Of a DNA stretch of 64,000 nt, positions 2,329-60,330 are shown one piece after another. This stretch comes from a bacterium (GTDB lineage: Bacteria > 4484-113 > JAFGCY01): positions 1 through 64,000 of the forward strand of contig JAFGCY010000084.1 in NCBI GenBank assembly GCA_016932385.1. The letters run 5' to 3'. Position 1 is the stretch's first letter. The number at the start of each line of letters is the position of its first letter. A program made the translations under genes and the position numbers. The notes below the pieces were generated by a model that made no database searches, was not told where the DNA came from, and saw only the letters and a list, made by a program, of their open reading frames with translations.

Positions 2329-3852
2329 ATGACGGAATTAGCCACACGCATGAGTATCGACGAGCAGCTCATCTGGCTGTTCGAGGGCACCAGCTTCGCG
2401 GACGAGGCAGAACTGCACCAGCTGGAGCGGCAGTTCAGCGCGGAAGCCGGCATTGTGGCCAGCCTGCACGACAAGGTTTCCGCTGGTCAGGCCGACGAGG
2501 ATGATCAACAGCGATACAAGTCGTCCTGCCGCGAAATCGACCGGCTCCGTCAAGAGATTGATAAGCTCAAGGCAGAGCTGCGTGGACCGGAAGCCGCCGA
2601 AACCGGCCTGCGCGGGCAGATGCGTAAGGAACTGCAACAGAAGCTGGAGCTGAGCGCGAAGCTCAAAGCCAAGGGGTTGTCCGACTGGCCGCTGCGGATC
2701 TACCTCGGTGTCGACCCGACGCGCGAAAGCCTGCACATCGGCCACATGGTGCCCTGCGTGCAGCTGCGCAAGTTCCAGGCACTAGGCCACCAAGTGATCT
2801 TTTTAATCGGCGACTACACCGCGACGATCGGCGACCCGAGTGGACAGTCGAGCGAGCGCGAACAGCTGACCCACGAGCGCGTGCTGGAGCTGGCGAAGTT
2901 CTATACCGCCCAGGCCTTCCGCCTGCTGGATGAGGACAAAACCGAAGTCCGCTACAACGGCGAATGGCTGGCCAAACTGACCTTTGCCCAAACCGCCGAG
3001 CTGGCGGCGCAGTTTTCGCTGAGCCGGATCGCGGCCCGCCAGGACTTCCGCAGCCGTGCCGAGGCCGGCCAGGAAGTAGGGTTGCATGAGTCGTTGTATG
3101 CATTGATGCAGGGCTACGATGCCTTCGCGCTGAACTGCGACGTGCAGGTCGGCGGCTACGACCAGCACCTCAACCTGCTGGCCGGGCGCACGCTGCAGAA
3201 ATACTTCGCCGCCAAGTACGGGCGTGACGGTGAACACCCGTTATATGCGGATTTCCCGGCCACCGGCAAGCGCGTCAAGGGGCCGCACGTCATGCTGACC
3301 TACCCGCTCTTGATGGGCACCGACGGGCGCAAGATGAGCAAAAGCTGGGGGAATACCATCGACGTACTCGATACGCCCGAGGACATGTACGGCAAGGTGA
3401 TGCGGATCAGCGATGAGATGCTGGCGAATTACATCGACGTGGCCATCGAGGCGCGCCAGACTGAGAAGGATCAGTGGAAGGCCAAGGCGCAGGACGACCC
3501 GATGGGCGTCAAGAAGTGGGTGGCGCATCGTCTGACGGAACTCTATCACGGCGCCGAGGCCGCCGCCCAGGCCGCGGAGCAATTCCGCCGCACCGTGCAG
3601 GAGAAGACGTTCAGCGAGGAAGATATCGAGGACGCCAGCGTACCGGACGAGTTCAAGTCCAGTGAAGTACGGCTCGTCGACCTGGTGGTCGCACTCAAGC
3701 TGGCGCCCAGCAAAAAGGAAGCGCGGCGGCTGATGGAACAGGGCGGCGTGAAGCTCAACGACGATCCGGTGACCGATCCGTTCGCGGCGTATACGCATGA
3801 GCCCGGCACGGTCCTGCGCGTCGGCAAACGCAAGGTTGTGAAGCTGATGTAG
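2329..3852 (+). CDS. tyrS: Tyrosyl-tRNA synthetase with N-terminal coiled-coil insertion
   Basis: 507 aa class I aminoacyl-tRNA synthetase that charges tRNA-Tyr in the cytoplasm. Visible: HIGH at 136-139 (ESLHIGHM), GDYTATIGDPSG, KMSKS at about 335-339, and a C-terminal S4 RNA-binding domain (APSKKEARRLMEQGGVKLND). Start chosen at ATG 2329 because TACAAT lies 8 nt upstream and the longer track start (2260) overlaps the previous gene. In ordinary TyrS the LRIxLGxDPT strand begins near residue 35. Here it begins near 122, because about 80 charged, coiled-coil-like residues (about 33-116) follow an otherwise normal first segment. No T-box or other leader is visible. Confidence 0.95.
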   Translation: MTELATRMSIDEQLIWLFEGTSFADEAELHQLERQFSAEAGIVASLHDKVSAGQADEDDQQRYKSSCREIDRLRQEIDKLKAELRGPEAAETGLRGQMRKELQQKLELSAKLKAKGLSDWPLRIYLGVDPTRESLHIGHMVPCVQLRKFQALGHQVIFLIGDYTATIGDPSGQSSEREQLTHERVLELAKFYTAQAFRLLDEDKTEVRYNGEWLAKLTFAQTAELAAQFSLSRIAARQDFRSRAEAGQEVGLHESLYALMQGYDAFALNCDVQVGGYDQHLNLLAGRTLQKYFAAKYGRDGEHPLYADFPATGKRVKGPHVMLTYPLLMGTDGRKMSKSWGNTIDVLDTPEDMYGKVMRISDEMLANYIDVAIEARQTEKDQWKAKAQDDPMGVKKWVAHRLTELYHGAEAAAQAAEQFRRTVQEKTFSEEDIEDASVPDEFKSSEVRLVDLVVALKLAPSKKEARRLMEQGGVKLNDDPVTDPFAAYTHEPGTVLRVGKRKVVKLM

Positions 3853-3872
3853 GGGCTGATCTAAGACACGTG

Positions 3873-3905
3873 TAGGGGCGTCCCGCCGACGGCGGGACGC
3901 TCCTA
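3873..3905. terminator. Long hairpin between convergent tyrS and clp genes
   Basis: TAGGGGCGTCCCGCC / GGCGGGACGCTCCTA is a 15-bp stem with one G-T wobble and a GAC loop, 20 bp after the tyrS stop. It has no T-tract, so it could act as a bidirectional terminator or be half of a dispersed palindromic repeat. Confidence 0.5.
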
Positions 3906-3910
3906 GGCTG

Positions 3911-3966
3911 GTAGCGCAAACGTCCCTGCTTGCGTCATGAATCGCGAGCACGGGGGCTCGCGCTAC
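3911..3966. repeat. Compound palindromic element (REP/BIME-like candidate)
   Basis: An outer inverted repeat GTAGCGC (3911-3917) / GCGCTAC (3960-3966) encloses two small hairpins: CGCAA/TTGCG (3915-3934) and CGCGAGC/GCTCGCG (3943-3962). The right arm contains the TAG stop of the clp gene. The nested symmetry suggests a small dispersed repeat, but I found no second copy in this window. Confidence 0.45.
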
Positions 3967-6392
3967 ATGGTCGTAAACACAATCCCACCGTCGGCGTCGG
4001 CATCCACCACCACCGTCGTACCGTCGGCGAACTCGCCGGCGATCACGCGCCCAGCCAGCGGGTTGATCACGTCGGTCATAATCGCGCGCCGCATCGGCCG
4101 CGCCCCGAAGGCGGCGTCGTAGCCGTGCTCGGCCAGCACATCGTAAGCCGCGTCGGTTACCTGAAGCGTGATGCCCTGGGCCATCAGCCGCTCGGCCGGC
4201 GCCCGCATCTGGAGCCGGGCGATCTGCTTGACCTGCTCGTGTGTCAGGGTATGGAACACCACGATGTCGTCGATGCGGTTCAAAAACTCCGGCTTGAAGT
4301 GGTCCTTCAGGCGCCGCAGCACCAGCTCGCGCAGCTCGCCGTAACCCGCCTCGATCGCCGCCTCGTCCTTGTCCGCGGTGAACTGGGCGATCTCGTGCGC
4401 CGCGACGTTGCTGGTCATCACCACGAGCGTGTTGGCGAAGTCGACGGTCACGCCCTTGCTGTCGGTCAGCCGCCCGTCGTCCAAGAGCTGCAACAGCACG
4501 TTGAGCACGTCAGGATGCGCCTTCTCGAGCTCGTCGAGCAGCACGATGCTGTAGGGCTTTCGGCGCACGGCCTCGGTCAGCTGGCCGCCCTCCTCGTAGC
4601 CGACGTAGCCCGGCGGGCTGCCGATCAGCCGCGTCACGGAGAACTTCTCGGTGTACTCGCCCATGTCGATGCGCACGATCGACTCACGGCTGCCGAACAG
4701 CTCGCCCGCCAGCACCTTGACCATCTCGGTCTTGCCGACGCCGGTCGGCCCGCAGAACATGAAGCTGCCGATCGGCCGCCCCGGTTCGGACAGCCCGGCC
4801 TTGTTGCGGCGCACCGTCTCGCTGACCGCCGATACCGCCTGGTCCTGGCCGATCAGCTGCCGGTGCAGCACGTCCTCCAGCCGCAGATATTTCTGTTTCT
4901 CGTCGGCGCCGAGTTGCTCGACCGGCACACCGCTCCAGTTGCTGACGATCGCCGCGACATCCGCCGCGGTCACCTCGGCAGACCGCTCGCTCTCGCCCAG
5001 GCGTTCGCGCTCGGCGGCGACCTGCTTGGTGAGTGCCAACACGTGCTGTTTGCACTGGGCGGCGCGCTCATAGTCGCCGGCGGTGTGGCTCTCCTGCTCG
5101 TCCTGATTGGCGCGCTTGAGTTCGTCCTCCAAGCGCCTGAGTTCGCCGACCTGGCCCATGTTCTCGATGCGCACGCGGCTGGCCGCCTCGTCGATCACGT
5201 CGATCGCCTTGTCCGGCAGGAAGCGGCCGCTGATGTAGCGCACCGAGAGATCCACCGCGGCGTCGAGCGCTTCGTCGGTGATCGCGATGCCGTGGTGCTC
5301 CTCGTAACGCCCGCGCAACCCGCGCAGGATCGCCTTGGCCTCGTCGGGCGTCGGCTCGTCGACGATCACGGGCTGGAAGCGCCGCTCCAGCGCGGCATCC
5401 TTCTCGATGTACTTGCGGTATTCCTTGAGCGTCGTCGCGCCGATGCACTGCAACACGCCGCGCGCCAGGGCGGGCTTTAGCATGTTGGAGGCGTCGAGGC
5501 TGCCCTCGGCCGCCCCCGCGCCGACGACGGTATGCAACTCGTCGATGAACAGGATCACGCCGCGCCGGGCGGCCTTGACCTCGTCCAGGACGGCCTTCAA
5601 CCGCTCCTCGAACTCGCCGCGGAACTTGCTGCCCGCCACCAGCGCGCCCATGTCTAGCGTCAGCACGCGCTTGTCGCGGATCACCTCGGGCACCGCCCCC
5701 TCGGCGATCTTCAGCGCCAGCCCTTCGGCAATAGCCGTCTTGCCCACGCCGGGCTCGCCGATCAGCACCGGGTTGTTCTTGGAGCGCCGGGACAGGATCT
5801 GCACGGTGCGCTCGATCTCCTGGTCGCGGCCGATGATCGGGTCGATCCGGCCCTGGCGGGCGCGCTCGGTCAGGTCGATCGTGAAGCGCTCCAGCGCCTG
5901 GTATTGCTCCTCGCCGCTCTCGGAGTCGAGGGTGTGCGTGCCGCGTAGTTCCTTCAGCGCGGCGTAGACCGCCTCGTGGGTCAGGTTGAACTCCGCCAAG
6001 AGCGCCGCGGTGCGCCCGCGCTTGAGCGCGATCAGCGCCAGCAGGATGTGCTCGGTGCCGATGAACTTGTCGCCCATCTGCTCCATCTCGTCCTCGGCCT
6101 GCGACAGCACGTCGTGGGCGTCGGGCGTCAGGTAGATCTGCTGAGAGCCCCCGCCGGCCGTGTCGTCGAGTTGCTGGCCGCGCTGCACCAGCTGCCTGAT
6201 CCGCGCGCGGGCATCGTCGGCATTGCCGCCGGCGTGTTCGATGATACCGCCGACTAGGCTGCCCTCGACGAAGGTGATGCCGTAAAGCAAATGCTCGCAG
6301 TCGAGCTGTGTCTGGTGCAGTTTCGCCAATGCGCCCTGCGCCGTCTCCAGCGCCTCGCGCGCCTTTTGTGTAAACCTGTCGAACTTGATCAT
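3963..6392 (-). CDS. Clp/Hsp100 AAA+ disaggregase (ClpB/ClpC type)
   Basis: 809 aa. N-terminal Clp-N repeats (residues 1-150); first AAA+ with Walker A GEPGVGKT (about 212-219) and Walker B ILFIDE; a short ClpC-like middle domain (about 415-470, not the long ClpB propeller); second AAA+ with Walker A GPTGVGKT (about 548-555), Walker B VLLDE and the ClpB-C domain. Between the second Walker B region and [10 protein letters not shown] see no [LIV]-G-[FL] tripeptide, the ClpP-docking loop of ClpC/ClpA, so it probably works without ClpP. ATP-dependent unfolding or disaggregation in the cytoplasm is inferred from the family. Ends in the palindromic element shared with the convergent tyrS. Confidence 0.9.
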
Positions 6393-6610
6393 TCCCTGTT
6401 ACCTTTAGTACAAACCACAGGCCGCAGCCTGTTGTCACTATATATTACCTGCGTTTTAGCTGAAAATCAACATATCTTAGTGATATAGGCTAAGATAATA
6501 TGCCTCATATAAAGTCATATTCGACAAATTACCCAAGGCTAAGTGTCTTTGAACATGCCGAGCCTCAAGCTGGATTACTGCCGTAAAGAGCCTAGGAAAG
6601 GGAAGTACAT

Positions 6611-6754
6611 ATGAACTGGTTAGCTAAGCTGCTGATCGCGACCGGCATTGTAGGATTGCTAGCAGCCTGCTGCTGCTTCGGCGGGTTACATGATACGGAA
6701 GTGGAAATGGGTCCAATGGGCATTCATAACGAAGGGAACGGAGGGGACGTCTGA
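6611..6754 (+). CDS. Small lipoprotein, 47 aa
   Basis: Too short for the ORF track. ATG 6611 is preceded by a purine-rich ribosome-binding stretch (AAAGGGAAG). The product has a Lys-containing n-region, a hydrophobic core and a lipobox LAAC at residues 17-20, followed by two more Cys (ACCCF), then a polar Gly/Asn-rich tail with GPMGIHNEGNG. It reads like an entericidin-sized membrane-anchored lipoprotein, but I recognise no family. It stands alone between the divergent clp gene and the convergent hydrolase gene. Confidence 0.6.
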   Translation: MNWLAKLLIATGIVGLLAACCCFGGLHDTEVEMGPMGIHNEGNGGDV

Positions 6755-6844
6755 GATATCGTGTGGCCTGCGCCCTCGCTTCACATCCTGAATGGCATCC
6801 CTGCGCAACTTGCGTCCGTTCCTGCGGTTGTTACCGTCCCACTT

Positions 6845-8500
6845 TCACCACTCCTCCACTTGCTCCACCACGGGCAGGATCAACGCGGACGGGTACTGTG
6901 GCCCGCAGTGCAGCGTCACGTTCTGCTGCTTGAACCGGCAGTGGTCGGTCCAGACCTCGCCGGTGCCGGGATTCAGGTCCCAGCGCGGAAAATTGCTGCC
7001 GCAAACGCTGATCCGGATCTGGTGCTCTTTGTTGAAGATGATACTCGTCGACCACAGGTCGACCTCGACTTCATAGATCGCGCCGGGGATCATCGGCACC
7101 GCGCGCTCCATCCCGTCGCGCTTGGACAGGCGCAGGATCCCGTCGGCAATCAGCATCGAGCGGCCGTCCGGATAGACGTCGCAGAACCGTACCGCCACGT
7201 CGGCATTGGGGGTATCGGCGCTGACCCAGAAGCGGCAGATCAGCCGGCCGGTGACCTCCAGTGGTTCTTCAAGTACTGCACTGGAGAACACCAGTACGTC
7301 GTCGCGCACCTCCAGCCAGCGCTGGTCGTACATGCCGGCATCGAGCACCAGGTTGCGCCCGCCCCTGGTCGGCACGGGATCCTCCGGATCGCAGAGGTAA
7401 GTAATCTCGGCGGCTTCGGCGGGAGGCTCAGCCTGGAGCGTACCGTCGGCGTGCAGATAGTACGGCGTCTCCGTGGCCGGTACCGGCCAGTCGTCGACGA
7501 AGCGCCAGCGGTTGCCCGGCGCCAGCGGCGCATACAGGTCGCCGATCGTGTAGTACATCACGTGCGGAGTGTCGCCGATACCATTGTCGATGTCTTTCAG
7601 CCAGTAGTCGAACCACAGGTCGAAGGGGTTCCCCGGCGCGTTTTCGGCGTTCTTCGGAAACTCCACTTCGCCGACGAAGACGTCTCCGGTCGAGTGCGTC
7701 CAGGGTCCCATCACCAGCCACTGCCGGCCGCGGGCGCCCTCGCCGCCCATGTGCTGGCGCAACACGTAACTGTCGAGCGTGCCCTGGCAGAAAGTATCGA
7801 ACCAGCCGCCGATATGCACCGCCGGCGTGTTGATGTCCTCGATGCGTTCGGCGATGTTGAACTGCCGCCAGAAGTCGTCGTAGTCCGGGTGCTCCTGGTA
7901 GAGCCTGAGCGCTTCGGGATCAAAGCCCGTATTGGTCAGCCAACCTTCGACCTGCGACTTGCGCTGGGCGCCGCCCTGGTAAGCCGCCTGGTGGTAAAGC
8001 GACGAAACCGCCACGCCGATATGCTGCGCCACCAGTCCCGGCGGTTCGGTCGGCGCCATCAGGTTCTGCGTAATGCCCAGCGCGGAGCCGCCGACGGTAC
8101 CGATCCGGCCGTTGCACCAGGGCTGGCTGTTGATCCAGGCGATCGTGTCGTAACCGTCCTGCTCCGCTCCCCAGCCGCAGGCGATGAACGGCAGGTTCGC
8201 GCCCTCACTGGCGTGGCGGCCGCGCATGTCCTGCGCGGCGAGCACATAGCCGTTGCCGGTGGCAATCGCGCCGTAAGCGGCGGCGCCATCCTTGTTATAG
8301 GGCGTGCGCATCAGGATCACCGGCCAGGGGCCGTCACCTTCAGGGAAATACAAGTCTGTCGCCAGGCTGACACCGTCCCGCATCGCAATCATCTTCAGCA
8401 CCGGCGTGCCAACCACAATCGTGTCGTCGGCGCAAGCAATCGCCGCCATCAGCGCCGTGAAGATCAACACCAACGCAGCGCGTGTCAGTCTTTCCGCCAT
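6845..8500 (-). CDS. Exported CocE/NonD-family hydrolase (X-Pro peptidase S15 type)
   Basis: 551 aa. After a signal peptide (ending near ACADD) comes the S15 alpha/beta-hydrolase fold: DLYFPEG.GPWPVILMRTPY, RGRHASEG, then GGSALG with the presumed nucleophile Ser. Family members have GxSYxG, so Ala replaces Tyr here. The C-terminal half is the PepX-C jelly roll (GRLICRFWVSADTPNADVAVRFCDV). Start: GAGGAG lies 5 nt before ATG 8500, which favours this codon over GTG 8506 used in the track. Likely an exported esterase, amidase or dipeptidase; substrate not deducible. Convergent with the small lipoprotein gene. Confidence 0.85.
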   Translation of the reverse strand: MAERLTRAALVLIFTALMAAIACADDTIVVGTPVLKMIAMRDGVSLATDLYFPEGDGPWPVILMRTPYNKDGAAAYGAIATGNGYVLAAQDMRGRHASEGANLPFIACGWGAEQDGYDTIAWINSQPWCNGRIGTVGGSALGITQNLMAPTEPPGLVAQHIGVAVSSLYHQAAYQGGAQRKSQVEGWLTNTGFDPEALRLYQEHPDYDDFWRQFNIAERIEDINTPAVHIGGWFDTFCQGTLDSYVLRQHMGGEGARGRQWLVMGPWTHSTGDVFVGEVEFPKNAENAPGNPFDLWFDYWLKDIDNGIGDTPHVMYYTIGDLYAPLAPGNRWRFVDDWPVPATETPYYLHADGTLQAEPPAEAAEITYLCDPEDPVPTRGGRNLVLDAGMYDQRWLEVRDDVLVFSSAVLEEPLEVTGRLICRFWVSADTPNADVAVRFCDVYPDGRSMLIADGILRLSKRDGMERAVPMIPGAIYEVEVDLWSTSIIFNKEHQIRISVCGSNFPRWDLNPGTGEVWTDHCRFKQQNVTLHCGPQYPSALILPVVEQVEEW

Positions 8501-8654
8501 GTCCACTCCTCGTCACTCACGGGCAGTATCAGCATGATTAGTCCCCGCGGGAAAATCATATCGCAATGCCGTTGCCAGTCCTAATTAAATTCCGGTCAAT
8601 ACCACGCCCATCAACACTAAAGACCATCGAATCAGCAGCCAGGCTGAACAGGCG

Positions 8655-8660
8655 TATAAT
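8655..8660 (+). promoter_or_regulatory. -10 hexamer TATAAT, leaderless arrangement
   Basis: TATAAT ends 7 nt before ATG 8668 of the tetraheme lipoprotein gene; no Shine-Dalgarno in between. Confidence 0.5.
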
Positions 8661-8667
8661 CTGGGTG

Positions 8668-10272
8668 ATGGCTACGCATCCCGCAAGTACGTGTTTCCGG
8701 CTGGCGTACGGGTTGATCCTCGCTGCCTGCCTGTTCCTGGCAGCGTGCCCCAGTGGCGGTGCATCACCGGTCGGCGGCACCGATGGGAAAACGACTGGCG
8801 GCCACCCGGCTACCACCATTCAGCGCCCGCAGGTTACGGTCGATCCCGGACCCAAGCCCGCTGCCGCCACGTTGGCTTACATCGGCAACTTCCGCGGCTT
8901 CCAGAAACCCTGTGGTTGCGCGGTGCAGCAGAGCGGCGGCCTGTTCCGGCTGGGCAGCGTCAGCGAGCAGCTCGACGGCTGGTTCGCCGATCCCGAGAAG
9001 ACAATCCCGCTAGATGGGGCGACCCCTCTCTACGAGCCGCCGGAGGATCTGGTCCGGCCCGAGCCGCTGTGGTTCGTGGAATGCGGCAACTTCGCGGATC
9101 CAAACGCGCATTTCCCGGTCGAGCGTGTCAAGACGCACCTGGCGGCGCTTGAGCATCTGATCCCGCGCGGACTGAAAGCCGCCGTACTCGGCAGCAGCGA
9201 ACTGCAGCTGCCGGTCGCCCACGTGCGCGAGGCGTTCGCGGAAACCGCGGTACCGATCGTCAGCTGCAATGTCACGTGCGATCCGGCGCTGCTGACGGTC
9301 AAGCCGTACCAGCAGATGGCCGAGGGTTGGTATCTGACCGGCCTGACCACCTGGAAACCCGCCACCATCGATCCGCCGGAGGAGCCCTGGTGGACGCTGG
9401 CCGATCCGCTGGAATCTGTCGCGGCCGTCGCAGCCGGACTACCCGCCGATGCCAACCTGATCGTTGTGGCGATGTACCAGGACGCCGAAGTAATCCGCCA
9501 GGCCGCCGCCTTGCCGGCCGTCGCGGTGGTGATCGGCCATAGCAGCGAGTTCGACAAACAATGGACGGAAGACCTGGCCCCGGCGATCGGCAACCCACCG
9601 GCCAAGGGCCTGTCGCTGAGACTGCTTTCGCTGACCGCGCGCACTGCCGACGGCCGCGGCACGGTAACCGACTGGGACATCCCGCTGGCCGACGGCTGGG
9701 CCGATGAGCAGTTCATGGTCGAGCTGGTCGATGCGGAACGCGATCTGGTCCGCCAGAAACTCACCGAGTTGATGGCGGCCAAGCAAGATGGCGGCTGGGA
9801 AAACGTTGACTGGGGTAGTGCCGAGAAATACCTGCCGGACAAGGAAGCCAAGTGGGAATTCTGGGCCGAGTCACCGCCGCATTATCTGGGCAGCCGCGCG
9901 TGTGTGGATTGCCACCCGCAAATCTATGCCAGCTGGCTCAAAACCCGCCATGCCGAGGCACTGGTTTCGCTGATGCAAAAGCAGGAGCATGAGACGCTGG
10001 ACTGCCTCAGCTGCCACGTCACGGGTTTACTGGAGCCTTCCGGTTACAATCCCGATGCTCCGGAGAAGGCACTGGGCGCCGTGTCCTGCGAAAGCTGCCA
10101 TGGACCCGGCTCAGTGCATGCCGGTCTGCAAGCCCTGGGGCGCGAAACGGGCGACCAGCACATCATTCGCGGTACTTTGGAGGGTTGCCTGGACTGCCAC
10201 GATGAATACAACAGCCCGGCTTTCGAGGCCACCTCGTATTGGCAGAAAATCAAGCACCAGACTCCGGACTAG
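8668..10272 (+). CDS. Tetraheme c-type cytochrome lipoprotein with nucleotidase-like N-domain
   Basis: 534 aa. Signal peptide with lipobox LAAC (about residue 28). The N-terminal two thirds contain IGNFRGFQKPCGC.VQQSGGLFRLG, the opening motif of a 5'-nucleotidase/metallophosphatase-like group that in other bacteria is fused to cytochromes. The C-terminal third has four CxxCH heme sites (CVDCH, CLSCH, CESCH, CLDCH) spaced as in cytochrome c-554-like domains, with CESCHGPGSVH typical of that fold. Likely a periplasmic or outer-membrane-anchored redox protein. Start at ATG 8668 is supported by TATAAT 7 nt upstream; the track start (8566) is too long. Confidence 0.8.
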   Translation: MATHPASTCFRLAYGLILAACLFLAACPSGGASPVGGTDGKTTGGHPATTIQRPQVTVDPGPKPAAATLAYIGNFRGFQKPCGCAVQQSGGLFRLGSVSEQLDGWFADPEKTIPLDGATPLYEPPEDLVRPEPLWFVECGNFADPNAHFPVERVKTHLAALEHLIPRGLKAAVLGSSELQLPVAHVREAFAETAVPIVSCNVTCDPALLTVKPYQQMAEGWYLTGLTTWKPATIDPPEEPWWTLADPLESVAAVAAGLPADANLIVVAMYQDAEVIRQAAALPAVAVVIGHSSEFDKQWTEDLAPAIGNPPAKGLSLRLLSLTARTADGRGTVTDWDIPLADGWADEQFMVELVDAERDLVRQKLTELMAAKQDGGWENVDWGSAEKYLPDKEAKWEFWAESPPHYLGSRACVDCHPQIYASWLKTRHAEALVSLMQKQEHETLDCLSCHVTGLLEPSGYNPDAPEKALGAVSCESCHGPGSVHAGLQALGRETGDQHIIRGTLEGCLDCHDEYNSPAFEATSYWQKIKHQTPD

Positions 10273-26579: not shown

Positions 26580-28529
26580 CTACCCGCCATCCGGACGGGA
26601 ATGTACATTGCTTTCTTCAGCATCTCTCGAGAGGCCGATTACCGCGGTGGATTGCTGACGGGCGATATTGCCGGCCACCAGGTTCAGCGCCCCGTCGTCC
26701 AGCAGCCGACCGGCCGGATCCTTGTTGCCCAGATAGCCTTTGTGGTTGTGTCCCTGCTTCTCCGCCACCAGGTGGTATTCCTGGTCATAGGTGCACAACT
26801 CGCCGCTGGCATCGACGGAATGATAGTTCGCCGGCGCGTGCTCGGGATGCTCAATGCAGACTTCGCCCAGCGACTTGTCCGCCTCCTTGACCCAATAGAA
26901 AGCTCCCAGCGCGGTATCCTTACCGCTGTAGTAGTTAAAGAACTCGCCGCAGGCCGTTTCGATCGCCTCGCCGTAGCGCTCCCCGCACTCGACGACCTCG
27001 TTGTCCAGCGACGCGCCCAGCAGATGGACGGTATCGATCTTCACTCCCGTATTATTGAAGCGGGGCTCATCTGTCAGCTGCCAGAGGCACTCCAGTGCCA
27101 TCCGGCAACCCATCGAATAGCCGATGACATGCAGGCGGGTGTGCGGATTCCGCCGTTTCCAGTCCACCGCGAACTGGGCCAGCTTGGCTCCGTTCAGCGC
27201 GGCATGCCGGTCGCCGGTGTGAAAGCCGGTGATCCCGATTGGATCGTGCTGGGTATCCGCGTCCCAGCTGAAACCAACCACCTGGCCCGTGAAACCGGCG
27301 TTTCGCAATGAGCTTTGCGCCAGGTCGAACTTGTAGAGGGCCTTGTCCGGCGGATTATTGAAACCGTGAATCACGATGACAATATCCGCGGGCGCCGGCT
27401 GATCAGCGGTTAAGCCTGGGATCGATCCCACGATTTCATAGCCCGTGGTGTCGTTTTCATCGACGAGCCAGCCCGCCCGGCAATGACCACGCGTGGAAAT
27501 AACAGGAATGCTCAGGTCCGGGCTGGGGTAGCAGTCCGGGTTGACCAGCACGCCGCTACGCAAGACCGCCAGCCAGCCGATTGCCAGCGCCGCCAGGCCC
27601 AGTCCACCCCAGGCCAGAACCTGCGGCCAGCGGCTGGCCAGGAACGCCTGAGTCTTGCGCCAGCCTTTGGCAGCGACATCCGCCGGCCCGCTGATCGATT
27701 CCGGTGGCATGGCCGGCAAGCCGTCGTAAAGGCCGGCAAAGCTCACATGGGGCCAACGGGCCAGCCGCCACCAGATACCGGCGGTGACCAGCGAGAACAA
27801 CGCAATCGCCGCCTCCAGAACGTACGGATACGCCGCGAACAAGTGCAACTGGCCCCAGTGGTGGGTTTGCGGCAGGTAGTAGTTTGCCAGCATGTAGAAG
27901 CCAGCCAGTCCTGCAGTCCAGCCCAGGTACCAGACGTATCGGCGCCCGCGATGACGGAGGATCAGCCATTGCTGGAATTCGCACAGGCTAACGCAATCCG
28001 CCGTGAGTAACAGCCAGGGAAACAACAACTGGCCGATGGTCAGGACCGTCGTGGCCGGTCCCAGGTAATGGACCAGCAGAGTGATCACGGAAGGCACATA
28101 AAACAACGCCGCCATCCAGAAATACACCGCGCGGCGCACGGAGCCGCGCACCGCCGCATACAACCCGGCCGGCCCGCCGTCCTGCCTGGCCAGATGCGTC
28201 AGCAAGGCATAGGCCAATCCCAAGCCGACCATGATCCCCAGCATGCGCCGCAGGCTGGGTGCAAAAAAGCCCAGGTCGTAGACCAATGACATCAGCGGAT
28301 AGGACCAGGAATCGCGATCGGCAACAACGACTGCCGGAATCCAGGCCAGCTCCTGGCGGTTGCCAGCCAGCATTATCAGGGATTCGCGGATCAGATCGAC
28401 CACCGCCGGCAGCCAGGTCAAAACCAGGGCGGCCGCAAGCAGCCAGGCCCACCGGCGATGCCAACGGGAGTTTTGCTTAAGCACATAGCGCAGCAGGGCG
28501 GATACCGGTTGCGACTTATTACGGTCCAC
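26580..28529 (-). CDS. Polytopic membrane protein with C-terminal alpha/beta hydrolase
   Basis: 649 aa, GTG start. The N-terminal half has about eight hydrophobic segments. The C-terminal 280 residues form an alpha/beta hydrolase of the DUF900-like group: oxyanion region VIVIHGFNNPPDKAL and nucleophile elbow GYSMG, with GVKIDTVHLLGASLDN downstream. The N-terminus is cytosolic or periplasmic depending on the helix count, so the catalytic side is not determined. It follows the 23-heme gene by 80 bp and may share its transcript. Substrate unknown. Confidence 0.7.
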   Translation of the reverse strand: MDRNKSQPVSALLRYVLKQNSRWHRRWAWLLAAALVLTWLPAVVDLIRESLIMLAGNRQELAWIPAVVVADRDSWSYPLMSLVYDLGFFAPSLRRMLGIMVGLGLAYALLTHLARQDGGPAGLYAAVRGSVRRAVYFWMAALFYVPSVITLLVHYLGPATTVLTIGQLLFPWLLLTADCVSLCEFQQWLILRHRGRRYVWYLGWTAGLAGFYMLANYYLPQTHHWGQLHLFAAYPYVLEAAIALFSLVTAGIWWRLARWPHVSFAGLYDGLPAMPPESISGPADVAAKGWRKTQAFLASRWPQVLAWGGLGLAALAIGWLAVLRSGVLVNPDCYPSPDLSIPVISTRGHCRAGWLVDENDTTGYEIVGSIPGLTADQPAPADIVIVIHGFNNPPDKALYKFDLAQSSLRNAGFTGQVVGFSWDADTQHDPIGITGFHTGDRHAALNGAKLAQFAVDWKRRNPHTRLHVIGYSMGCRMALECLWQLTDEPRFNNTGVKIDTVHLLGASLDNEVVECGERYGEAIETACGEFFNYYSGKDTALGAFYWVKEADKSLGEVCIEHPEHAPANYHSVDASGELCTYDQEYHLVAEKQGHNHKGYLGNKDPAGRLLDDGALNLVAGNIARQQSTAVIGLSRDAEESNVHSRPDGG

Positions 28530-28609: not shown

Positions 28610-30232
28610 CTAGATCTCGCTCTCCTTGTGGATCGCATGGCAATCCGTACACTCGCCGGCCGGAATCTCCGCCAAATGCACGAAGTCCTGGTGGCAGAGC
28701 TCGCAGCTGTTGGCGCTGCCGCCGTACTGCGCCGTGTGGTTATTGGCATGGCAGTTCTGGCAGACCGTATGCGGCATCGGCGGATTTTCCGGATAGATAT
28801 CGATATGGCACAAGTTGCACGAATCCGAATAGCGCCGGATATCGAAGACATGGGCTTCATGGCAAACGGCGCAGACGCGGTGCCCGAAGGGGATGTCATC
28901 CCAGGTCAGGGCTTCGCCGGGCATCGGCTCGGTGTGACAGGGAATGCAGCTGTTGACGGGACCGGCAAACGTGAAGCCGCGCGAGTCGATCGCGGACTGG
29001 CTATGGCAGTTTTCACAGGCCAGATGTTCCTCGGGCGTCTGGGGCTGGAACTCGAGGTGCATGCGGTCCGGATGGCAACCGCGGCAGGATCCGCTCTTGG
29101 CCATCGTTTGAATGCTGTGCGGATCATGGCAAGCCTCGCAGTCCGTCTGATGGAAGTTCAGGTTGTGCTCCAGCACCGAGTCGATCTCATGGCAATTGAT
29201 ACAGGTGTTCTGGAACGTCGCGTACCAGTGGTGCGGTTTATGGCAGGATGTGCAGGTCTGGTGCTCGTCGGGTAACCCCGCCAGCTGAGTGCTGGCGCCT
29301 TCCTGATCGTGGCAGGTCACGCAGGCCTGGTCGCCGTAGTAGTTGAAATTGCCGACGTAATGGCAATTCGTGCAGTCGCGGTGGGTCGTCGGCAGATGGC
29401 TCTCGCCGCCGTAATAGGTGTCATCGTGGCAGACCTGGCAGGCCTCATCGCCGATATCGGTGGTACTGAAGTGCGCGTTGTGGCAGGCCAGGCAGTCCTG
29501 CGGGTGATCGGGCACGTTGTGCACAAGGATTTCACCGCTGGCATAGTGGCATTTCGAGCAGAGCTCGCTGCTGTTGCGGATCGGGCTGTGCGGCGTATGG
29601 CAAACCAGGCACGAGCCATGCACCTTGTTGTCGGGGTTGACGATCTCCGCCACCTCGGGATGGCAGTCCGCGCAAACCTGTCCGCCGGAAACAACGGCGG
29701 TCTCGTGCGGCCGATGGCAATTGTCACAGGTAATATCGTGCGGTGACTCGGGATTGAAAGCGGTATAGATCACGCTGTCCAGCCCGTGGCAGTCCTGGCA
29801 TAATTCGCGCAGGATGTGCACGCTATCGGCGTAGTTCTCCGTGTATTTGCGGAACTGGTGGCAGGACAGGCAATGGTTATGCCAGACCTCGGCGGCGACA
29901 ATCCGCTCCCCGTGGCATTCCATGCACAGAGCCAGCGATTCCTCGTGGGTGATCCAGGTTTCCGTGCGGTGGCACCGGTTGCACTCGATCTGGGCATCCT
30001 CCACATGGGCTTGGTGCATCAGGTTGCCGATCATGCTGCTCGTTTCCTGCGGCGAGAACTCATAGCCGGTTAATTTAACCGGAATAGCAGTATCGGCAGC
30101 AGCGGTCGTCGGATGCTCGACCTGATGCGTACAGCCGGCAACAACGAGCGCCACCAACGTCAAGACGCAGGCCAGCAACCTCAGCTGCACGCGTTTTGCC
30201 TCGATCCACTTGATTGGTTGTTTGGTATTCAT
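28610..30232 (-). CDS. 23-heme c-type cytochrome lipoprotein
   Basis: 540 aa. Signal peptide with lipobox VAGC (about residue 34). I count 23 CxxCH motifs between about residue 83 and the C-terminus, one per 20 residues, often followed by PH or AH as in CHRPH, CHTPH and CHDPH. That density suggests a heme wire of the NrfB/MtrA/OmcS kind. Encoded last in a three-gene operon after HybA-like and HybB-like proteins; its ATG overlaps the HybB-like stop (TGATG). Inferred role: accepts electrons from the quinol-oxidising membrane module and passes them across the periplasm or to the cell surface. No terminal reductase is next to it. Confidence 0.85.
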   Translation of the reverse strand: MNTKQPIKWIEAKRVQLRLLACVLTLVALVVAGCTHQVEHPTTAAADTAIPVKLTGYEFSPQETSSMIGNLMHQAHVEDAQIECNRCHRTETWITHEESLALCMECHGERIVAAEVWHNHCLSCHQFRKYTENYADSVHILRELCQDCHGLDSVIYTAFNPESPHDITCDNCHRPHETAVVSGGQVCADCHPEVAEIVNPDNKVHGSCLVCHTPHSPIRNSSELCSKCHYASGEILVHNVPDHPQDCLACHNAHFSTTDIGDEACQVCHDDTYYGGESHLPTTHRDCTNCHYVGNFNYYGDQACVTCHDQEGASTQLAGLPDEHQTCTSCHKPHHWYATFQNTCINCHEIDSVLEHNLNFHQTDCEACHDPHSIQTMAKSGSCRGCHPDRMHLEFQPQTPEEHLACENCHSQSAIDSRGFTFAGPVNSCIPCHTEPMPGEALTWDDIPFGHRVCAVCHEAHVFDIRRYSDSCNLCHIDIYPENPPMPHTVCQNCHANNHTAQYGGSANSCELCHQDFVHLAEIPAGECTDCHAIHKESEI

Positions 30233-31548
30233 CAGGACACCGCCTGCTTATCCGGATTCGGTGCTTCCAGGGAGTGGGGCTCTTGTGTATCCACCAAGAC
30301 CGGGAAGTTGCGCACCATCACGTTGTAGAAGAAGAGAATACCGGCGACCAGGCCGGCACTGATCAGAAGCTCTTCCGGGCTGGGGAAATACGCGCCGTTG
30401 CCCGGCCGTTCCATCGCAAACAAGGTCACGTTGAACCGATTGAAGATCAGGCCGACGATGATCAGCGCCGCCGCGCCGAATCGCATCCAGGTCTGGTGCC
30501 GGAACTTGCAGTTGGCCAGCAGGATCATCGGGACAATGGCCCCCATGGCCAACTCAAAGAAAAACAGCCCGCCCATCGGGCTGAACAACAGGTCCAGGTG
30601 GCCGCGCTGAATGACATCCACAAAGCGCAAGACCGTATAGATGCCGAGGATATAAAACAGAATGTGGCCGAATCCCGCCAAAGCATCCGCCTCGATCGGC
30701 AGTCCGAAATTGCGGCTGCTCAGGGTGGACTCGAAGATCACCATGGCAAAGCCCACTCCGACAGCCGAAACAAAGAAGAAGACCGGTAACAACGGTGACC
30801 ACCACAGCGGGTGCAGCTTATCCTGCGTCAACAGGAACAATGTGCCCAGGCTGGACTGGTGGGCCGTGCTGAAGAGCACGCCGGCGATGATCAACAGGAT
30901 CGGCACCCCGCCCGGTGCCGAGACCAACCTGGGCAGGAATACGGCCAAAATGCTGGTAACCACCAGGGCTACCACCGCCCACACCCAGGAATGCGACATG
31001 ATGAAGGTGAACCAGGACAGCGCAATCACGACAAACACCGGCGTTACTTTGGCCAGCAGTCGTTGCGCCCACTCCCAGCCGAATCGCTCGAAGACGGACG
31101 GCAGAAACTCCAAGGCCAGCACCGAGGTGTATAGCATTACGCACCAGGCCACTTCGAACAGCGCGGAGTGCTTCGGCCAGAACAGGATCGGATGGTAGAT
31201 GTGCCAGGGCAAACCCAGGTCGACCAGCAGGCCGATCGCGACAAAGATGTAGCCCAGGAAACCGGTCAGAATTGCCGGCCGGGTCAGGCCATGGAATTTC
31301 TCCCCCCAGAACAGGTAGACCACGGCGGCGGTCGTAAAGCCGCCGGCGGCCAGGGCCACGCCGCAGATCACGTCGAAGGCCACCCAGATACCCCAGGGGT
31401 ACTGGTCGCTGAGGTTGGTGGTCGCTCCCAGGCCCAGCACGAACCGGTAGATCGTCGCCATCAGGCCGGCGGCCATCAGGATCAACAGCGCCGTGGTCCC
31501 CGGTGTTAACAGCTTGAATTCGCCGCGGTAGAAGGAGTGGCTAGCCAT
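30232..31548 (-). CDS. HybB/NrfD-family quinone-interacting membrane subunit
   Basis: 438 aa with about ten transmembrane helices. The segment LGLGATTNLSDQYPWGIWVAFDVICGVALAAGG closely follows the HybB pattern of E. coli hydrogenase 2, as does FLGYIFVAIGLLVDLG. These proteins have no heme and exchange electrons between quinone and an Fe-S partner. ATG 31548 overlaps the stop of the ferredoxin gene (ATGGCTAG), 32 codons inside the track ORF, and the stop overlaps the cytochrome start, so all three genes are translationally coupled. Confidence 0.9.
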   Translation of the reverse strand: MASHSFYRGEFKLLTPGTTALLILMAAGLMATIYRFVLGLGATTNLSDQYPWGIWVAFDVICGVALAAGGFTTAAVVYLFWGEKFHGLTRPAILTGFLGYIFVAIGLLVDLGLPWHIYHPILFWPKHSALFEVAWCVMLYTSVLALEFLPSVFERFGWEWAQRLLAKVTPVFVVIALSWFTFIMSHSWVWAVVALVVTSILAVFLPRLVSAPGGVPILLIIAGVLFSTAHQSSLGTLFLLTQDKLHPLWWSPLLPVFFFVSAVGVGFAMVIFESTLSSRNFGLPIEADALAGFGHILFYILGIYTVLRFVDVIQRGHLDLLFSPMGGLFFFELAMGAIVPMILLANCKFRHQTWMRFGAAALIIVGLIFNRFNVTLFAMERPGNGAYFPSPEELLISAGLVAGILFFYNVMVRNFPVLVDTQEPHSLEAPNPDKQAVS

Positions 31549-32413
31549 CCTGCACCCCCTGATCCTTGCCGGCGGCGCGTTCCTGCTCGGCCAGTTCGAC
31601 TTTGCGCTTCCAGAGCAGGTAGATCCCCGCCAGAACGAATCCACCGAAGACGATCAACGGCGGCACGCTGTCCAGGGCTGCTTCGGTGTACTCCGGATAC
31701 GGACGCTCGCCCGTGCGCGTCGGAAAGCCCAGGAGCGCGAACGGCACCGGCGACAAGTACAGCCACGCGGTGCCGCCGGCTTCCTTTTCGCCGTAGATAT
31801 GGTTCACATAACGACCGGGATTCTGCTGGATTCGCCGCTTGGCTTCGGCCAGTAGTTCATCGCGTTCGCCGAACTGCAGGCAACTGGTCGGGCACGCGGC
31901 CACACAGGCCGGGATCCGTTCCTCACGGCTCAGATCCTCGTTGGAAAACATCCGCTCGACACAGAAGGTGCATTTCTTCACGTAAGGAATCGGCTCACTC
32001 CACTGGTACGTCGGGACGTTAAACGGACAGGCCATCATGCAGTACCGGCAACCCATGCACTTGTTCATGTCATAGACGACCGGTCCTTCCTCCATGCGGT
32101 GGAAAGCCCCGACCGGACAGGCCGATTCGCAGGCCGGTTCCAGGCAGTGCATGCACTGGCGCTTGACGAAAACCCAGTTGGACTCGCCGACACCATCGGC
32201 GGTGTCATGGTATTCAACCACTGTAAAACGGTCCGCCGACAACGGTGGCCGGTGATCGGCTTGCTCGGTTCCCACATAGCAATCCTGGCGCTTGCCAGGG
32301 GTTGTAACATACGAGTCGCTGTCCAGGCTTTGACCGTGCTGCTGCCGGCAAGCCGCCGCACAAGCGCGCCCACCGGCGCACTGTGTCAAGTCCACGAGAA
32401 CACCAAAACTCAT
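31541..32413 (-). CDS. HybA-like 4Fe-4S ferredoxin subunit with C-terminal membrane anchor
   Basis: 290 aa. Several Fe-S Cys groups: CAGGRACAAAC (about 12-22), CMHCLEPACESACP, CMGCRYCMMACP and CTFC...ACVAACP. The first group lacks one Cys: the usual CxxCxxC has Gly in the second position. A C-terminal helix (LIVFGGFVLAGIYLLW) anchors it as in HybA. There is no Tat or Sec signal at the N-terminus (MSFGVLVDLTQ), so sidedness differs from HybA or export is by hitch-hiking. GGAG precedes ATG 32413; the track ORF starts too early. First gene of the operon. Confidence 0.85.
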   Translation of the reverse strand: MSFGVLVDLTQCAGGRACAAACRQQHGQSLDSDSYVTTPGKRQDCYVGTEQADHRPPLSADRFTVVEYHDTADGVGESNWVFVKRQCMHCLEPACESACPVGAFHRMEEGPVVYDMNKCMGCRYCMMACPFNVPTYQWSEPIPYVKKCTFCVERMFSNEDLSREERIPACVAACPTSCLQFGERDELLAEAKRRIQQNPGRYVNHIYGEKEAGGTAWLYLSPVPFALLGFPTRTGERPYPEYTEAALDSVPPLIVFGGFVLAGIYLLWKRKVELAEQERAAGKDQGVQDG

Positions 32414-32494
32414 TTTCAACTCCAGTTGTTCTAGCCAACCAACCCGCAGCACCGAGCGACACGACACGTAGCTTAACATACCTATTAGTTCATC

Positions 32495-32508
32495 TTATAA
32501 TATTATAA
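32495..32508. promoter_or_regulatory. Perfect 14-bp palindrome TTATAATATTATAA
   Basis: Lies about 80 bp upstream of the HybA-like start. It contains TATAAT on both strands, so it could be a -10 region, an operator or an AT-rich melting site. Confidence 0.3.
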
Positions 32509-32606
32509 CTACAGCTAGCAAGCTACAACTGCGATTTCACTCGTTTTTGCCCACACAATCACAATTTAACCTGATTATATGTGGGCTCAACAGCACATCG
32601 ATGATA

Positions 32607-32624
32607 ATGATATAATTATATCAT
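32607..32624. promoter_or_regulatory. Perfect 18-bp palindrome ATGATATAATTATATCAT
   Basis: About 195 bp upstream of the redox operon. The TGAT-N8-ATCA arms resemble an FNR/CRP half-site pair, but the spacing is not the FNR N4 spacing. Candidate operator. Confidence 0.35.
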
Positions 32625-32745
32625 ATTGAACAACAGTTTATTTTAAATGGAATATATGAGAATGTTTGAATGAAATATTAACTATCTACGAAACTCTACA
32701 CGCGATAATACCGACGGACAGCCTGCGTGATTTTTCTCTAAGTAT

Positions 32746-32762
32746 ACCATACTGGGTATGGT
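32746..32762. promoter_or_regulatory. Inverted repeat ACCATAC TGG GTATGGT
   Basis: 7-bp perfect arms with a 3-nt loop. It could be an operator or a short hairpin downstream of the HDOD gene. Confidence 0.25.
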
Positions 32763-32928
32763 TATTGGTCTGAGCCACAAGCCAACTCGGAGAACGCACC
32801 AGATTCCGAAACGAAACCCCGGCAGCGGGCCCGCCCTTAATTGAATTGAATCTTGGTTATCTTGGTAATTTCCGCCCACCGCCAGCCTGTGGCTGACATT
32901 AAATTCCGATTAAAGGCGACGGGTAGGT

Positions 32929-37936: not shown

Positions 37937-38701
37937 TTATCGTCGCCGCGCGCGCTCGATCAGCCAGACCAGAACGACGCCAACCAGGTAAAGCGCCAGC
38001 AAGGGGGCGGTCAACACCAGCATGTTGAACGCGTCACCCGTGGGGGTGATCAGCGCGGCCAGCGTCATCAGCACCACCAGGGCCCAGCCCGTACGCTGCC
38101 AGAGCCAGCGAGATGTGACGAGTCCCAGCCAGCCCAGAACGCACATCACGGCGGGTAACTCGAACAGCAACCCTCCGGCGACGCAGAGTGCGGTGACAAA
38201 GCCGAAGTATTTTTCTTGCGTCAGCATCGGCTCGGCGGTCTGGTGGGCGAAACCCAGCAGGAACCCGATACTGACCGGCAGCAGAACGAAATAAACGAAC
38301 AACACGCCGGCGCAGAACAAGCCCAGAATCACGGGCAGCACCGGCCCCACCGCCCGTTTCTCCTCGCGCTTGAGTCCAGGTGCGATAAACGCCCACGCCT
38401 GCCACAGCACTACCGGTGAAGCCAGGACCAGCCCGCCGAACAAGGCCAGCCGGAAATAGACGATCCATGGTTCCTGTATGGCCAGGAATTTCAGGTTCAC
38501 GTCAGGCGCAGCCTGGTGCAAGGGGTAAAGCAACATCGAGTACAGCCAGCCGCGAAAGCAGAATGCCACGACCATGCCCGCGGCTACGCCCGCCACCGCA
38601 ATCCCGATCCGCCGCTTAAGCTCGCCCAGGTGTTCCCAGAAGGTCATCGTGCCTTCCACGGCCTGGACTTCGTTGGCAGGTTGCCCGGCGGAAGGAATCA
38701 C
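37937..38701 (-). CDS. tatC: Sec-independent translocase TatC
   Basis: 254 aa with six transmembrane helices. Canonical TatC N-terminal motif MTFWEHLGELKRRI, then FIAPGLKREEKR and FAHQTAEPMLTQEKYFGFV. The GTG start at 38701 overlaps the stop of tatA/B (CAGTGATT), so translation is coupled; an internal ATG at 38647 is the alternative. Forms the substrate receptor of the twin-arginine pathway with the neighbouring protein. Confidence 0.95.
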   Translation of the reverse strand: MIPSAGQPANEVQAVEGTMTFWEHLGELKRRIGIAVAGVAAGMVVAFCFRGWLYSMLLYPLHQAAPDVNLKFLAIQEPWIVYFRLALFGGLVLASPVVLWQAWAFIAPGLKREEKRAVGPVLPVILGLFCAGVLFVYFVLLPVSIGFLLGFAHQTAEPMLTQEKYFGFVTALCVAGGLLFELPAVMCVLGWLGLVTSRWLWQRTGWALVVLMTLAALITPTGDAFNMLVLTAPLLALYLVGVVLVWLIERARRR

Positions 38702-39081
38702 TGCGCCTCCTCCCCTTCGGTCAAGCCGGATGTGGCTTCCTTCGAACTTGCGTTGTCTGCGCCACCCGGATCATAGGGCGGAGGAGCCAGATAATCATCG
38801 GCGATCGGGACATGCGGGTCCGCGTTCGTGTTCGCCGGCAGGCGCTGCGGTCGAGGCAGGCCGATGGGCGGCCGGGGCCGCGCGACATCCATGTCGTCGA
38901 CATTCAGATCGATCTCCTGCCGGATCTCGGACATCGCATCGTCGACACGCCGGCGGATCTTAGCCAGTTCCTTGAAGACGGCACTGACGGTGCGAACGAT
39001 CTCGGGCAATCGCTGGGGACCGAGCACGAGTAATGCCACCAGGGCGATCACCAGCAGCTCGCTGCCACCCAGTCCGAACAT
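38698..39081 (-). CDS. TatA/TatB-family translocase subunit
   Basis: 127 aa. MFGLGGSELLVIALVALLVLGPQRLPEIVRTV is the TatA/B membrane helix and hinge; the GPQRLPE form is closer to TatB. An amphipathic helix (residues 22-60) and a Pro-rich acidic tail follow. Start at 39081 rather than 39237: TATAAT at 39089-39094 ends 7 nt before this ATG, and the in-frame ATG further upstream falls inside that hexamer. No second TatA/B paralogue is in the window. Confidence 0.9.
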   Translation of the reverse strand: MFGLGGSELLVIALVALLVLGPQRLPEIVRTVSAVFKELAKIRRRVDDAMSEIRQEIDLNVDDMDVARPRPPIGLPRPQRLPANTNADPHVPIADDYLAPPPYDPGGADNASSKEATSGLTEGEEAQ

Positions 39082-39088
39082 CGCGCCC

Positions 39089-39094
39089 ATTATA
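39089..39094 (-). promoter_or_regulatory. -10 hexamer TATAAT of the tat operon, leaderless arrangement
   Basis: TATAAT ends 7 nt before ATG 39081. It overlaps the ATG used in the track, so only the internal start is compatible. Confidence 0.5.
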
Positions 39095-39231
39095 CGGCGC
39101 ACTCCTGAGTATAAAAGCTCAAGGGCGCTATTGTGTCCCGAACCGTGTCCATTGATTTTGGGCACAACCGTGTCTTTAAGGGGCACTATGCGGCTGGGTA
39201 CAATAAACTGTGACGTCGTTTGGATAACGCC

Positions 39232-39817
39232 ATGCATATCCAGTTAGACCGGTCAATCGCCATGCCGTTGTATCGGCAGATCATCGGGCAGGTCGAGGCC
39301 TGGGTTAAAAGCGGTGACCTGCCGCCCGGAGCGGAGCTGCCCAGCGTGCGCCAGCTGGCGCGCGAGGACTTGCAGTTCAATATGCAGATTCGCCAGCATG
39401 ACGCCGACGGCGACGGCGAATGTGACGCCGTCAGCACCGCAATGAACCAGCTGCGCCTGCAATTCAACCGGACGCTGGGTGAAGGCGAAGACCAACTGGA
39501 GCCGCCGGCGGAAGTGCTCGAAGGCGTGCAGCAGATAGGTAGCGCCGACCGAGCGCTATCCGCTGACGGGCGTCGTCGTAGACGAGGACGGCGCTGGGGT
39601 GGAGAATGTCGGAATTTATATCGAGTCCGGTGACAATCGCCTGCGTGTCATCACCGATGAAAACGGCGAGTTCACCAAGCAGGTTCCGGCCGGCAACTAC
39701 ACGGTTACCCCGTTCCACCGCCACCTGGAATTCGACCCGGCATCGGCAACTGTCGAGGTGCCGATGGCCGAGGGTACGCAACTCATGTTTGTCTCTTCTC
39801 GTGTCAACAACGCCTAG
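39232..39817 (+). pseudogene. Composite, probably broken gene: GntR-like head and carboxypeptidase-regulatory-like tail
   Basis: Frame 1 from ATG 39232 begins with a YtrA-type GntR winged helix (MPLYRQIIGQVEAWVKSGDLPPGAELPSVRQLARED). It then leaves the family inside the recognition region and runs through unrelated DADGDGECDAV sequence to 39633. A second frame, opening just after TAG at about 39534-39536, encodes a carboxypeptidase-regulatory-like beta domain (PLTGVVVDEDGAGVENVGIYI, VITDENGEFTKQVPAGNYTV) ending at TAG 39817; this matches no start codon before GTG 39599. The simplest reading is a deletion fusion plus a +1 frameshift. TACAAT at 39199-39204 may be its -10. Confidence 0.5.
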
Positions 39818-59562: not shown

Positions 59563-60324
59563 TTAAGGAACGCGGAAGTTGTCCAGAACCTCGACGACCG
59601 TGGACAGGACCATGATCCGCGAGTAAAGCTTGGAATTGCCCGGCACCAAGAACCAGGGCGCGTGCGGCGCGTCGGTTTCCTTGAACATCGCCTCGGCGTA
59701 TTTGAAATACTCATCGTACTTCTCGCGGTTGCGCCAGTCTTCCTTGGTGATTTTCCACTTCTTAAGCGGATCCTCGGTACGGGATTTAAAGCGCCTGAAT
59801 TGCTCATCCTTGTCGATGTGCAGCCAGAATTTCATCAGACAGTAGTGGTCGTCCGCCAGGTGTTTCTCGAACTGGCGGATCTCCTCTTTGGATCGCTCGT
59901 ACTCCTCCGGCGTATTGAATCCCTCGATGGGCTCGACCAGCATCCGCCCGTACCAGCTGCGGTCGAAGATCGCGATGCGTCCCTTGCTCGGCAGGCGCAG
60001 CCAGAACCGGCGCAGGTAGTGGTGCGACAGCTCCTGCGGCGACGGCGCGCCGATCGCATGCACCTCCAGGCCGCGGGGGTCGAGGAACTGCACCAGGCGC
60101 TTGATCGCCCCGCCCTTGCCGGCCGCGTCCATGCCCTCGAAGATGATCACCACGCGCATGCCGGTGTCCACGATCAAACGCTGCAGGCGTACAAGGTCGA
60201 TCTGCAATTGATACAACTGGGCATCGTATTCCTTGTGTTTTATCTTCCTGGCCAGGTCGAGATCGGCCAGTGAAAGAAGCCTGCCGGGCTTACCATTCGT
60301 GTTGTTCTTTGACTTCTTGGACAT
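59563..60324 (-). CDS. PPK2-family polyphosphate kinase
   Basis: 253 aa, single PPK2 domain. Walker A EGMDAAGKGGAIKRL, Walker B IFDRSWYGRMLVEPIEGF, lid region RFWLRLPSKGRI, KFWLHIDKDEQFRRFKSRTEDPLKKWKITKEDW. Transfers phosphate between polyphosphate and nucleotides in the cytosol. The short basic N-terminus (MSKKSKNNTNGKPGR) is variable. TAAAAT ends 6 nt before ATG. Confidence 0.92.
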   Translation of the reverse strand: MSKKSKNNTNGKPGRLLSLADLDLARKIKHKEYDAQLYQLQIDLVRLQRLIVDTGMRVVIIFEGMDAAGKGGAIKRLVQFLDPRGLEVHAIGAPSPQELSHHYLRRFWLRLPSKGRIAIFDRSWYGRMLVEPIEGFNTPEEYERSKEEIRQFEKHLADDHYCLMKFWLHIDKDEQFRRFKSRTEDPLKKWKITKEDWRNREKYDEYFKYAEAMFKETDAPHAPWFLVPGNSKLYSRIMVLSTVVEVLDNFRVP

Positions 60325-60330
60325 AGTGTC

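Follow-up and report, generated by a model that had tools for sequence, protein, structure and literature searches.

In the 64,000-nucleotide stretch of contig JAFGCY010000084.1 analysed here (the window), which comes from a bacterium of a barely sampled candidate phylum, three overlapping minus-strand genes (positions 32413-28610) encode, in order, an iron-sulfur (Fe-S) protein, an NrfD-type membrane protein, and a multiheme cytochrome. We consider it reasonably probable that the three products make up a quinone:multiheme-cytochrome oxidoreductase related in type to the Hmc and HybAB modules, a quinol-linked feed to a periplasmic wire in which outflow of electrons is favoured. An earlier note on this DNA had proposed such a coupling of a quinone module to a multiheme protein, and family assignments, a fold match, and published parallels all support it. 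We infer that the three proteins form a complex, and likewise the direction of the electrons and the partners that exchange them. The three-gene architecture is known; what is new is the combination of a signal-less, cysteine-deficient Fe-S adaptor with a long, repeat-built wire.

The three genes and their products

The last gene of the operon (28610..30232, minus strand) encodes a 540-aa c-type cytochrome lipoprotein with a lipobox (LVVAGC, Cys34). Our recount of its CxxCH motifs gave exactly 23, the number first reported, and neither CxxCK nor CX3-4CH variants occur; in 1000 composition-preserving shuffles there were 0.41 CxxCH on average and never more than 3. Over most of the length of the protein, the heme spacing alternates between about 18 and about 22 aa, a pattern of diheme repeats, and the best general matches are to cytochrome c7/c3-type Pfam families (E 3e-18 / 5e-17). 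The family scan matched no specific enzyme family: TIGR04315 (octaheme tetrathionate reductase family, OTR) and TIGR03146 gave no match, and the HmcA model reached 21 bits against a cut-off of 400. A close match to an NrfB/OTR-type reductase, which the earlier note had named as a refuting outcome, was not found; the best match, to the DmsE-like TIGR03508, scored 41.5 bits against a cut-off of 192.2. Beyond residue 60 there are 29 His residues outside the motifs for the 23 hemes, 20 of which are conserved in a paralogue described below; such numbers would be expected of an electron carrier whose hemes are mostly bis-His, not of an enzyme.

Per heme, the mature cytochrome comprises 22 aa, or 2.46 kDa. 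Given that peptide-minimised cytochromes hold about 27 hemes per 200 Å (PMC7096707), the 23-heme protein is probably about 170 Å long, by this analogy near the width of the periplasm. The heme number was described at the outset as high for one lipoprotein; high it is, but not exceptional, as up to 86 hemes have been reported (PMC7096707) and the PCC3 periplasmic cytochromes have 21-27 (PMC10734462).

The middle gene (30232..31548, minus strand) encodes a 438-aa integral membrane protein of the quinone-interacting HmcC/HybB/NrfD type, with about 10 predicted transmembrane (TM) helices. It matches Pfam NrfD (PF03916, E 6e-10) and, in NCBIfam, HmcC (E 7.2e-89) and HybB (E 9e-87), followed by QrcD; it is 34% identical to E. 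coli HybB. Its AlphaFold model, of moderate confidence (56.6) but weak, matches ActC of alternative complex III (ACIII). A sequence search of the PDB returned no match for this protein or for the cytochrome.

The first gene (31541..32413, minus strand) encodes a 290-aa, tail-anchored, 4-cluster-type Fe-S protein of the HmcB/HybA/FdnH kind. It matches HmcB (E 1.2e-82) and HybA (E 5e-62) in NCBIfam, all matches of this and the NrfD-type protein lying below the equivalog cut-offs, and is 37% identical to E. coli HybA; its best solved homologue is FdnH of E. coli formate dehydrogenase N (1kqf, E 3.8e-28). The membrane anchor claimed for this HybA-like protein is there, as a single C-terminal TM helix (residues 249-267) followed by a basic KRK. 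The Tat (twin-arginine) signal of HybA is not: the protein starts MSFGV with no twin-arginine or other signal peptide, no upstream frame contains an RR signal, and the HmcB profile aligns only from position 36. Tat signals are present on HybA and on the Fe-S proteins of two clusters in relatives of the same class. We infer that the Fe-S domain nevertheless lies in the periplasm.

The protein has also lost a cysteine. In its first cluster motif, CxxCxxCxxxC, the second Cys (position 15) is Gly, whereas HybA, FdnH, PsrB, and three in-phylum relatives all keep the Cys. A sequencing error is unlikely, as the GGG codon differs from TGC/TGT at two positions. We take the matching residue in FdnGHI to ligate cluster FS1, which faces the catalytic subunit. 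With this ligand lost, the first cluster is likely to be [3Fe-4S] or otherwise altered. The missing signal, the lost Cys, and a closest relationship to a formate dehydrogenase beta subunit are points that the earlier note did not contain.

Relatives and genomic setting

Across a sample of 10 genomes of the phylum, the Fe-S/NrfD pair is present in 3. The closest relatives are the beta and gamma subunits of a selenocysteine formate dehydrogenase in genome G007, of the same class (55-60% identity; Fe-S 55%, NrfD 58%). That operon (L026:about 3000-9076, plus strand) has an in-frame TGA before HSPTVA, a Tat-exported alpha subunit, a signal-less Fe-S protein, an NrfD protein, and an FdhE-like protein; the alpha subunit carries DRRRFIKYSGLGG and a twin-arginine signal, while its Fe-S partner, like ours, is signal-less. 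In a second type of pair (42-45% identity), present in two class relatives, the Fe-S protein bears a Tat signal and the NrfD protein is accompanied by a 13-heme cytochrome, part of which is OTR-like. In G008 the NrfD protein and the cytochrome have separate genes; in G007 the NrfD/HybB-like protein and the 13-heme OTR-like cytochrome share one 1059-aa open reading frame (L027:7291-10470, plus strand) preceded by a Tat-bearing HybA-like gene, and this fusion supports physical coupling of NrfD proteins to cytochromes. The gene-order comparison called for in the earlier note thus had a divided outcome: these analogous clusters with OTR-type cytochromes were found, but the exact trio in no relative.

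The cytochrome belongs to a family of repeat-built lipoproteins, with members of 23, 23, 33, and 33 hemes, that are encoded next to different quinone modules. The paralogue in the same genome (38% identical, also 23 CxxCH) is flanked on one side by an OTR gene (TIGR04315, 517 bits) and on the other by a set encoding two 8-heme proteins, a TM cytochrome and a lipoprotein, as well as a cytochrome b. The 33-heme members are in two class relatives, and one of them adjoins Rieske, cytochrome b, and 9-heme genes, a bc-type complex. One cytochrome family therefore stands beside three kinds of quinone module (HybAB-like, the cytochrome b/OTR operon, and the bc-type complex), which supports a plug-in model of the wire. 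A broad genome scan for the window cytochrome returned a single distant locus, in Marinimicrobia. The two 33-heme relatives (L023:7020-9263 and L024:4134-6479, both minus strand; 747 and 781 aa) have just 29-31 His outside CxxCH, so some of their hemes may lack a distal His of their own.

Within the window, the Fe-S and NrfD-type genes overlap by 8 nt and the NrfD-type and cytochrome genes by 1 nt (TGATG), in agreement with the overlapping arrangement first described at 28610-32413. Each gene is preceded by a plausible ribosome-binding site (GGAG before the Fe-S ATG). A gap of about 0.5 kb, partly AT-rich, lies upstream of the Fe-S gene; this gap and the tight overlaps fit a single operon starting there. 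The AT-rich intergenic stretch at 32470..32810 is a probable promoter region, with consensus matches not above chance; promoter and terminator matches around the operon as a whole are at chance level, and an Rfam search gave no match. As the earlier note had stated, no molybdoenzyme, hydrogenase, or NrfA adjoins the operon, and HmcD/HmcE/HmcF-type genes are likewise missing beside it.

Directly downstream of the 23-heme gene is a DUF900 alpha/beta hydrolase (26580-28529, minus strand); a 46%-identical counterpart lies directly downstream of an 18-heme lipoprotein gene in G006, a relative within the family (L025). That 18-heme lipoprotein shares 36% identity over 445 aa with a lipoprotein of 466 aa and 9 CxxCH encoded at 63113-64000 (plus strand), whose gene runs past the end of the window and continues in L006:5114-6514. 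At 8566-10272 (plus strand) the window also encodes a protein of 568 aa that has a cytochrome c554-type domain and four CxxCH. By eye, tatC- and tatA-like genes lie at 37937-39237 on the same strand as the operon, about 5.5 kb upstream of it, which makes the presence of Tat machinery probable; a tandem pair of polyphosphate kinase 2-like genes at 59563-61255 (minus strand) was recognised in the same way.

The genome as a whole is 89.9% complete; our CxxCH scan of it covers positions through contig C13 and the Tat-motif scan those through C57, and subunit names of respiratory proteins beyond Pfam matches are readings by eye. It encodes complex I, ACIII, a heme-copper oxidase, and two OTR operons. 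In the second of these (L032:5153-9325, minus strand), the OTR is 47% identical to the copy on C13 and is accompanied by a multiheme TM protein and cytochrome b; possible sulfur-transport and rhodanese-like genes follow it. The molybdopterin matches are NuoG and a cytoplasmic NAD-type formate dehydrogenase-like protein, and the hydrogenases are NiFe of the cytoplasmic Mvh/Hdr type and FeFe of the cytoplasmic HydABC type. Neither HybO nor HybC was found in this genome.

Proposed electron flow and alternative readings

In the mechanism that we propose, electrons would pass between the (mena)quinone pool and the NrfD/HybB-like protein close to the periplasmic face, be relayed by the tail-anchored Fe-S protein to the 23-heme lipoprotein, and travel along this wire through the periplasm to other periplasmic cytochromes (e.g. 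the octaheme OTR systems encoded elsewhere in the genome) or towards the outer membrane. The Fe-S/NrfD pair would be a formate-dehydrogenase-like beta/gamma pair re-used with a cytochrome partner. We favour outflow, in which quinol would be oxidised and the wire reduced, on account of the OTR links and two precedents: SirCD, which feeds quinol electrons to CymA-dependent pathways, and Cbc4 (PMC11434368). Three-gene modules of tail-anchored Fe-S protein, HybB, and octaheme cytochrome, as well as Hmc, are further precedents (PMC10924467). The earlier note had also raised extracellular electron transfer. This was not borne out, possible as it is, since no outer-membrane component supports such a step: MtrB/PioB porins are in 0 of the 10 phylum genomes (a search that did not include the porin family of PCC3), and beside the operon we recognised no porin and neither of two other PCC3 cluster parts, the extracellular cytochrome and the HX13H inner-membrane protein.

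Several observations weigh against the mechanism as we propose it. The phylogeny of HybB, HmcC, and QrcD has been taken to suggest that quinone reduction is preferred, i.e. inflow (PMC6303296). With neither a signal peptide of its own nor a recognised Tat partner, the Fe-S protein would reach the periplasm by an unexplained route. The exact trio is known from one genome only. Finally, the AlphaFold prediction for the cytochrome, built from 5 sequences, had a pLDDT of 34 and a pTM of 0.20; it was not used, which leaves the length and heme stacking of the wire putative.

The first of these points leads to the same complex working in reverse, where the wire would gather periplasmic or extracellular electrons and the HybAB-like module would reduce quinone, possibly electrogenically like QrcABCD. 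HmcC and HybB are closest to QrcD, Hmc has been suggested to prefer quinone reduction, and QrcABCD in liposomes is electrogenic (PMC6303296); a role in electron uptake by iron oxidisers has been proposed for long, PCC3-like periplasmic cytochromes (PMC5566968, PMC10734462); and with ACIII and a heme-copper oxidase, the genome has an acceptor chain. On the other hand, OTR-type cytochromes, members of a reductase family, are here associated with the family of the wire as well as with the NrfD modules, and neither a periplasmic hydrogenase or formate dehydrogenase donor nor entry through an MtrB-type porin was identified in this genome. We regard inflow as unlikely, although a serious contender.

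It is improbable, in our judgement, that the Fe-S and NrfD-type proteins are the orphaned beta and gamma subunits of a formate dehydrogenase or hydrogenase, the gene for its Tat-exported catalytic subunit lying elsewhere or being absent from the assembly, with the 23-heme protein as an extra partner. The nearest relative is indeed such a pair, with a signal-less Fe-S subunit; co-export of signal-less Fe-S and HybB pairs with a Tat [FeFe] hydrogenase has been published (PMC10924467); and a catalytic subunit could be in the missing part of the genome. Yet no Tat-exported catalytic subunit able to carry the Fe-S protein was seen among the matches listed, the molybdopterin proteins and hydrogenases being those described above. 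Tat-motif counts did not exceed the control, and the only Tat-substrate-like proteins among the stretches screened were ActB of ACIII and two others not obviously connected with the module. The lost Cys, moreover, belongs to the cluster whose FdnGH counterpart faces the catalytic subunit, and its loss fits that of such a partner. Least probable is a cytoplasmic Fe-S protein in an inverted arrangement like SoeABC (PMC8076601), passing cytoplasmic electrons to quinone while the cytochrome acts separately: the lack of any signal peptide or upstream extension agrees with it, but the NrfD-type protein shares 58% identity with the NrfD protein of a Tat-exported formate dehydrogenase, and the basic KRK just past the TM helix is as in N-out tail-anchored proteins.

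Returning to outflow from quinol through the wire, we offer one evolutionary account, tentative and on balance doubtful: a formate dehydrogenase-type Fe-S/NrfD pair may have lost its catalytic subunit and been re-targeted to a single-polypeptide wire able to span the periplasm, its enzyme-facing cluster becoming altered (perhaps to [3Fe-4S]) and the Fe-S protein being placed in the periplasm by an undefined Tat partner or route. If true, the pair and the wire would form a direct, one-step electron bridge from quinol at the inner membrane to the outer membrane, without soluble shuttles. Whether the periplasm is crossed by soluble shuttles or one fixed wire is unsettled, and the operon, in which a lipoprotein with more than 20 hemes accompanies a quinone module, offers a compact case for testing this; for the signal-less, Cys-deficient adaptor, the route of export and the type of cluster are specific questions that lend themselves to testing.

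Comparison with known systems

Hmc of Desulfovibrio (HmcABCDEF) likewise combines a large multiheme cytochrome with a tail-anchored 4-cluster Fe-S protein and a HybB-like NrfD protein, and HmcB and HmcC are the best NCBIfam matches of the window pair, though below the equivalog cut-offs. However, HmcA has 16 hemes rather than 23, the window cytochrome is a lipoprotein, no genes for HmcD, HmcE (cytochrome b), or HmcF (cytoplasmic Fe-S) adjoin the trio, and the Fe-S protein of the window is without a Tat signal. The three-gene module described in 2024 (PMC10924467) has the same three roles, standing alone with no hydrogenase link: a tail anchor, a HybB-like neighbour, and an exported c-type cytochrome. 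In that module, Tat signals are present on the Fe-S proteins and an octaheme OTR often serves as the cytochrome, whereas in the window the Fe-S protein is signal-less and the cytochrome a 23-heme repeat lipoprotein.

SirCD and Cbc4 (CbcSTU) also pair an Fe-S protein with an NrfD-type (or b-type) membrane protein that feeds periplasmic cytochromes from quinol (PMC11434368); we claim no orthology, and the window lacks the reductase SirA. By description, the cytochrome resembles PCC3 of iron oxidisers, a repeat-built wire proposed to span the periplasm, in heme number (21-27) and in aa per heme (22-39 reported, 22-23.5 here) (PMC5566968, PMC10734462); in contrast, PCC3 is accompanied by three further proteins (a porin, an extracellular cytochrome, and, in the inner membrane, a five-TM protein resembling cytochrome b), none of which was recognised beside the window operon. 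E. coli hydrogenase-2 (HybOCAB) shares the Fe-S/NrfD pair at the 37% and 34% identity to HybA and HybB given above, but the window has a multiheme partner instead of HybO/HybC and its Fe-S protein lacks the Tat signal and one cluster-1 Cys. Formate dehydrogenases of the FdnGHI type or with an NrfD anchor share the signal-less, tail-anchored Fe-S subunit; in place of their catalytic alpha subunit, the window operon has the gene for a 23-heme cytochrome.

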